Below are positions 49,514-49,973 of a stretch of DNA of 64,000 bases, piece after piece (positions within the stretch are counted from its first letter, which is position 1; every line of letters starts with the position of its first letter). The translations under genes were made by a program, and so were the position numbers. The stretch comes from Spirochaetaceae bacterium (lineage in GTDB: Bacteria; Spirochaetota; Spirochaetia; Treponematales; Treponemataceae): assembly GCA_017936665.1 (NCBI GenBank), contig JAGBFB010000031.1, positions 1-64,000 of the forward strand, read 5' to 3'. A model generated the notes under the pieces. That model worked only from the letters and a program-made list of their open reading frames with translations. It had not been told where the DNA came from and ran no database searches.

Positions 49514-49969
49514 TTATTTGATTATTGTAAAAATTGCAGAGCTAACAGCTACCACAAAACTAACCCCAGCCGTTACTTTCCAAAACTTCACTTCTTTTTG
49601 AAGCTTTATCGATAATTTCTGTAATTGCTGATATTCCTCTGTATATTTCTGTAATGTTTGATTCAGACTGTTCTTGCTCTGTTGTAATTCTATCAGTTGA
49701 CAGTCTGATTTCTCCAATGCTAGTAATGCCTTGTTCAATTTCTGTTCTAGCTGTATTGACCTGTTCTTCAGCTCGATTGATTCCTTGCTGATAGTTTGAC
49801 GCGACATCTGCAACATCTGTAATGATGTTCTCATCGAGGTTAAGTGTTGCTTCATCAATGACACTTCCTCTGCCGTGAACACAACCTCGGATGAATCCGC
49901 AGAAAAACACAATGACGAAACACAAAACAATAATAAGAACACTAAAAATTGTTTTCTTAGAAATTTCAA
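49514..49969 (-). CDS. Spanin-like protein A (signal peptide, coiled coil, C-terminal TM)
   Basis: This 151-residue frame starts at a TTG at 49969. It has a signal peptide (FLVFLLLFCVSSLCFSA), then a long coiled coil (about 35-125) and a C-terminal membrane helix (VTAGVSFVVAVSSAIF). The Cys at 16 and 20 could serve as loose spirochaetal lipobox residues. That topology resembles unimolecular spanins. It overlaps spanin-like protein B in another frame over 410 nt. Both start behind the same AAGGAGG. Confidence 0.65.
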   Translation of the reverse strand: MKFLRKQFLVFLLLFCVSSLCFSADSSEVVFTAEEVSLMKQHLTSMRTSLQMLQMSRQTISKESIELKNRSIQLEQKLNKALLALEKSDCQLIELQQSKNSLNQTLQKYTEEYQQLQKLSIKLQKEVKFWKVTAGVSFVVAVSSAIFTIIK

Positions 49970-49973
49970 TCAA
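49560..49973 (-). CDS. Spanin-like protein B (N-terminal TM, coiled coil)
   Basis: This 137-residue frame starts at a TTG at 49973, 6 nt after AAGGAGG, an optimal spacing. It has an N-terminal membrane anchor (IFSVLIIVLCFVIVFFCGFI) and a helical periplasmic region (NIITDVADVASNYQQGINRA and onward), the topology of lambda Rz. It ends inside protein A, whose frame continues 15 codons longer. The start overlaps the stop of the holin-like gene. Confidence 0.7.
   Translation of the reverse strand: MIEISKKTIFSVLIIVLCFVIVFFCGFIRGCVHGRGSVIDEATLNLDENIITDVADVASNYQQGINRAEEQVNTARTEIEQGITSIGEIRLSTDRITTEQEQSESNITEIYRGISAITEIIDKASKRSEVLESNGWG

Follow-up and report, generated by a model that had tools for sequence, protein, structure and literature searches.

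Analysis of a 64,000-nt stretch of DNA (hereafter, the window) revealed a pair of genes, which we call A and B, that occupy almost the same DNA of a lysis-gene neighborhood in two different reading frames of the minus strand. The two frames overlap by 410 nt. Judged from sequence comparison, dual coding of A and B is established, and the A/B arrangement is an ancient one that has been widely kept in the prophages of spirochetes, Treponema among them. Our preferred reading, held with fair though not high confidence, is that A and B constitute a co-evolved lysis pair of Mu-like and related spirochete phages, encoded in two frames that share one initiation region. As a matched pair, A and B probably help to break the bacterial outer membrane.

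Two frames in the same DNA

The features of the locus and of its neighborhood are given in Table 1. These coordinates confirm what the preliminary description of this DNA had claimed, namely two minus-strand frames whose TTG starts lie 6 and 10 nt after a single AAGGAGG. No second site with two frames overlapping by at least 350 nt and with adjacent starts was found on either strand of the 64 kb. Chance double frames of this type do occur in GC-richer loci, so the weight of the case for dual coding rests on conservation.

Table 1. Features of the A/B locus and neighboring genes (positions are those of the window).
Feature	Position	Strand	Description
Portal protein, Mu-type	45960..47141	-	PF06074, E=2.3e-61
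Terminase large subunit	47212..48687	-	phrog_2, E=4.3e-27
Small terminase subunit, Mu gp27-like	48680..49219	-	PF11985, E=7.8e-22
94-aa protein, between pair and terminase	49212..49496	-	N-terminal membrane helix and coil; weak matches only
Frame B	49514..49969	-	151 aa (151 codons), TTG start 4 nt after that of A; type I, with a predicted signal peptide, one long helix, and a membrane helix at the C-terminus
Frame A	49560..49973	-	137 aa (137 codons), TTG start; predicted N-terminal membrane helix and one long periplasmic helix (i-spanin-like, type II)
Twin start TTGATTG	49967..49973	-	TTG of A at 49973, TTG of B at 49969
Shine-Dalgarno AAGGAGG	49980..49986	-	ends 6 nt before TTG of A, 10 nt before TTG of B
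85-aa holin-like protein	49966..50223	-	two predicted membrane helices; directly upstream of the pair; conserved partner (...YRSIWLDKK...)
C39-like cysteine peptidase, putative endolysin	50156..50851	-	PF13529, E=3.7e-8

Conservation was assessed in 40 distinct homologous loci from six GTDB families, all of which were fully read. This set is what remained after coiled-coil false hits had been taken out (L022, L025–L027, L080, L122, L123, L125, and L167, dropped after inspection). The preliminary description had held that relatives with stops in one frame, or codon-level conservation in only one frame, would speak against the pair. Both frames were open in all 40 loci, stops in one of the two were found in 0/40, and the third frame was broken by stops. 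Constraint was found in both frames. In the window, when the B protein was held fixed and synonymous codons were shuffled, A was open in 0.2% of trials, and the converse shuffle, with the A protein fixed, left B open in 0.2%. Among 21 sequences with a median pairwise identity of 25–28%, similarity in the A frame lay far above the null obtained by synonymous shuffling with B fixed (z=31), as did that in the B frame in the mirror shuffle with A fixed (z=47). For five closer pairs, omega was 0.61 (0.47–0.79) for A and 0.41 (0.32–0.53) for B, A being under the weaker constraint, and substitutions that alter both proteins were rarer than those that alter one. In L021 and L024, a 21-nt insertion inside the overlap lengthens both proteins at the same place and breaks neither frame. 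A profile search with A alone recovered the known loci together with four additional ones (L163, L164, L165, and L172), in each of which the B frame was present and the starts were adjacent.

The twin start and the route of initiation

The adjacency of the two starts is a property of the family. In 38 of the 40 loci the starts are 2–7 nt apart, the start of B lying at +4 (17 loci), −2 (9), +7 (8), or −5 (4) relative to that of A; the remaining two loci have offsets of −14 and +16. ATGNATG and ATGTG are the most frequent forms, the latter present in 9/40 loci. A control that was independent of how the starts had been chosen gave the same picture, as an adjacent start pair within 30 nt of the start was observed in 38/40 loci; the rate was 13% for 61-nt windows drawn at random and 3% for those taken from inside the overlap. 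One further locus, L142 (around 1500–1900), which is outside the 40-locus count, has no standard A start beside that of B, and the nearest lies well upstream. A Shine-Dalgarno sequence at good spacing is present in the window and in many relatives; L008, L009, L114, and L138 are without a clear one.

Ambiguous initiation has been shown for AUGUG in E. coli and was proposed for the rnpA/rpmH genes of Thermus, which are the only bacterial case described according to the same source (PMC9841429). The A/B pair resembles rnpA/rpmH, overlapping genes whose starts are 4 nt apart (AUGGAUG) behind one Shine-Dalgarno sequence, in that both frames are conserved as proteins and the starts lie a few nucleotides apart (38/40 loci) behind one Shine-Dalgarno sequence in the window. 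It differs in that rnpA and rpmH are housekeeping genes, whereas A and B are a putative phage lysis pair found in many hosts with at least four spacings. The E. coli AUGUG/GUGUG sites (pqiA, tamA; PMC9841429) have the same motif as the 9 ATGTG loci and are able to start both frames; however, their second product is a peptide of 10–15 residues, while both products of A/B are conserved proteins. In the dual start of lambda S105/S107, two nearby starts of a lysis gene likewise set a product ratio, but there the starts are in one frame and the products are two residues apart.

We propose that a single Shine-Dalgarno sequence would bring ribosomes to the twin start and that, together with termination at the holin-like gene, this would allow either start codon to be used. 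The choice between the two start codons would then set the ratio of A to B. An alternative is that the adjacent starts reflect termination-reinitiation at the upstream stop rather than one Shine-Dalgarno sequence with ambiguous initiation. In the window the TGA of the holin-like gene overlaps the TTG of B (TTGA), a detail absent from the preliminary description that offers reinitiation as a possible further route to B, and in 22/40 loci the stop of the upstream frame is no more than 5 nt from the first start. However, L017, L028, L078, and L119 keep the twin start even though the upstream stop is 12–50 nt away, the well-spaced Shine-Dalgarno sequences also argue against this alternative, and reinitiation is in any case compatible with the shared Shine-Dalgarno route. 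We therefore consider reinitiation in place of ambiguous initiation possible but somewhat unlikely, and suggest that ambiguous initiation behind one Shine-Dalgarno sequence and reinitiation after the upstream gene may act together.

Protein anatomy, neighborhood, and probable function

Topology was judged from hydrophobicity and motifs. All 40 loci have a hydrophobic segment at the N-terminus of A and one at each end of B. AlphaFold2 modeled A as a membrane helix and one helix from residue 43 to 134 (mean pLDDT 86.6), and B as a signal helix and one helix from residue 33 to 150 (mean pLDDT 93.5). At 0.15 nm per residue these helices would be ~14 nm long in A and ~18 nm in B, the latter including its membrane end. 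The anatomy first proposed from the window was an N-terminal membrane anchor and helical region for A, and for B a signal peptide and coiled coil with a membrane helix at the C-terminus. A Foldseek search of the B model against viral structures gave no match, which is expected since B is one long helix. Matches to Rz-like PHROGs were weak and scattered (0.0023 for A of the window), and coiled coils yield such matches by chance. Membership of CENPH, SMC, or TIGR04211 was rejected, as these were low-scoring coiled-coil matches only.

No lipobox was found in A or B of the window. The N-terminus of A is a membrane anchor in the window and in most relatives, while in about six loci a lipobox-like motif ends the signal of A (CTGC in L078, LSSC in L079, LSGC in L114, LAAC in L117, and FSGC in L120 and L121). 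As the motif replaces the membrane anchor in these loci, the anchor type of A appears to have switched within the family, and A may there be an outer-membrane lipoprotein. Matches to a lipobox in B were sporadic (L003, L075, L117, and L121) and none was conserved. In most members, then, no lipoprotein is predicted, and the inner membrane is the only predicted site of anchoring for both A and B.

The neighborhood of the pair bears out the lysis context that had been suggested for the window. The peptidase upstream of the pair varies while the pair stays, being of the C39 type in the window, M15 in L024, VanY-type in L060, and M23 in L096, so that several unrelated endolysin types are found beside it. 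A Mu gp27-like gene lies within ~1 kb downstream on the same contig in 22/24 family members. The slot occupied by the pair, that of Rz/Rz1, is the one in which Mu-like phages carry spanins. Mu itself is listed among the phages with overlapped spanins (PMC6139136). The changing peptidase beside a constant pair, with the gp27-like gene downstream, makes a spanin-like role the best explanation for A and B. We infer this lysis function, and the translation of both frames, without assigning the pair to the spanin class.

In the mechanism that we envisage, A would be held in the inner membrane by its N-terminal anchor or, in the one group where it is a predicted lipoprotein, could sit in the outer membrane. 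B would be exported and held in the inner membrane through its C-terminus. With the two proteins attached to the inner membrane by opposite ends, their long periplasmic helices would pair, and once the endolysin had cut the peptidoglycan, A and B would act on the outer membrane in the manner of spanins.

The term spanin-like, as used in the preliminary description, suits the pair in position and anatomy but not in the usual two-component definition. The pair has the expected place in a lysis cassette next to a holin-like gene and a putative endolysin, and A has the features of a type II i-spanin with a helical periplasmic domain (40/40 loci, and the model). An o-spanin lipoprotein with a lipobox is lacking in the window, the motif being present in A of about six loci. 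Canonical spanins need a hold on the outer membrane, which is predicted for neither A nor B in most loci. Like the two-component spanins whose genes are embedded or overlapped, lambda Rz/Rz1 among them (PMC6139136), A and B are two envelope proteins encoded in two frames of the same lysis-cassette DNA, and one of the two, A, is of type II in the inner membrane and has a helical part in the periplasm. B, in contrast to the Rz/Rz1 partner, has an ordinary signal and type I topology and is not a lipoprotein; that a type I protein could serve as an i-spanin is a suggestion made in PMC6139136. For ~70% of embedded spanins, the start of the o-spanin lies at 0.4–0.5 of the i-spanin length (PMC6139136), whereas A and B have a common start region and overlap over nearly their full length. 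B is similar to the unimolecular spanins (T1 gp11) in having an N-terminal export signal, a long middle, and a C-terminal membrane helix (40/40 loci). B has no conserved lipobox, and so does not fit the unimolecular definition, and its DNA also encodes another conserved protein. We see an even chance that A/B is an old, widespread family of almost completely overlapping genes and a new class of spanin, in which ambiguous initiation at a single ribosome site sets the two products, one partner is a type I inner-membrane protein, and a lipoprotein is mostly absent.

It could also be that A and B are real proteins but not spanins, and that they control the holin or endolysin at the inner membrane, either in an antiholin-like fashion or by tethering the peptidase to the inner membrane. 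In most members the predicted anchors of both proteins lie in the inner membrane only, the pair comes directly after the holin-like gene, and in Treponema pallidum a VanY-like peptidase immediately precedes it, without an intervening holin-like gene. Against this, the pair is in the spanin slot before Mu gp27, its helices of ~14–18 nm are long enough to span the periplasm, and the lipobox-like motif of A in about six loci suits placement in the outer membrane. On balance we judge such a control function unlikely and favor the spanin-like pair.

Two readings would deny that A and B are separate proteins. Programmed frameshifting that yields A–B fusion proteins, as overlapping frames on the same strand might allow, is very improbable because A and B have separate start codons, one beside the other, and each carries a complete signal or anchor sequence of its own. 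That only B is a gene and A an accidental open frame might be suggested by the weaker constraint on A and by the chance occurrence of double frames in GC-rich DNA, but it is already contradicted by the tests above (A open in 40/40 loci, its similarity over the null with B fixed, its omega interval below 1, and the recovery of the same and new loci by the A-only profile), and we regard it as next to impossible.

Distribution of the pair and its occurrence in Treponema pallidum

Homologs of B were found in the GTDB family of the window, in other families of its class, and, outside that class, in a single genome (L115). Named hosts include Treponema bryantii B25 and rumen Treponema, and host names together with the kinship table point to spirochetes as the wider host group. 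The window sequence alone, used as query against phage records and viral contigs, gave no match, and relatives were therefore taken from whole genomes. Eight IMG/VR viral contigs carry the A/B pair. A double-frame scan of three viral contigs with related large terminases (L057–L059) detected no such pair. Two genomes carry more than one copy, four in G033 (L120) and two in G042 (L117), which suggests multiple related prophages. In family f42, the pair at L098:99-655 adjoins sugar ABC transporter genes, and that at L094:1851-2343 is without recognizable phage genes nearby; these pairs are possibly host-borne.

The literature searched, mostly without subscription journals, held no description of the A/B pair, which is weak evidence of novelty. 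In the passages found on Leptospira transposable prophages, lysis modules are predicted and the A/B architecture is not mentioned (PMC8705779). Two conserved proteins made from one ribosome site are known in bacteria essentially from one Thermus pair (PMC9841429). The A/B family offers dozens of natural versions with varied spacings and start codons, by which the rules and purpose of ambiguous initiation become testable. The pair also hints at a way in which phages may breach the unusual envelope of spirochetes; the literature searched contained no account of such a pair for this envelope.

The T. pallidum genome (G020, 1,139,633 bp) holds the pair with an ATGTG start (L028). At the same place in T. 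pallidum Nichols (L060:8316-9569), a VanY-like carboxypeptidase precedes A/B, and inspection of the neighborhood showed no phage genes next to the pair. This suggests a domesticated or left-over copy; the occurrence also counts against our preferred reading. In strain Nichols, TP0222 has a variable site at nt 228259 that causes E46D (PMC10013896). At the coordinates of L028 this site falls on codon 46 of B, and the sense primer of that study matches the locus, from which we conclude that TP0222 is B. The overlapping A frame is not mentioned in PMC10013896, and our analysis reveals it as a conserved second frame inside TP0222. By our own count, the E46D change in TP0222 makes A I46L.
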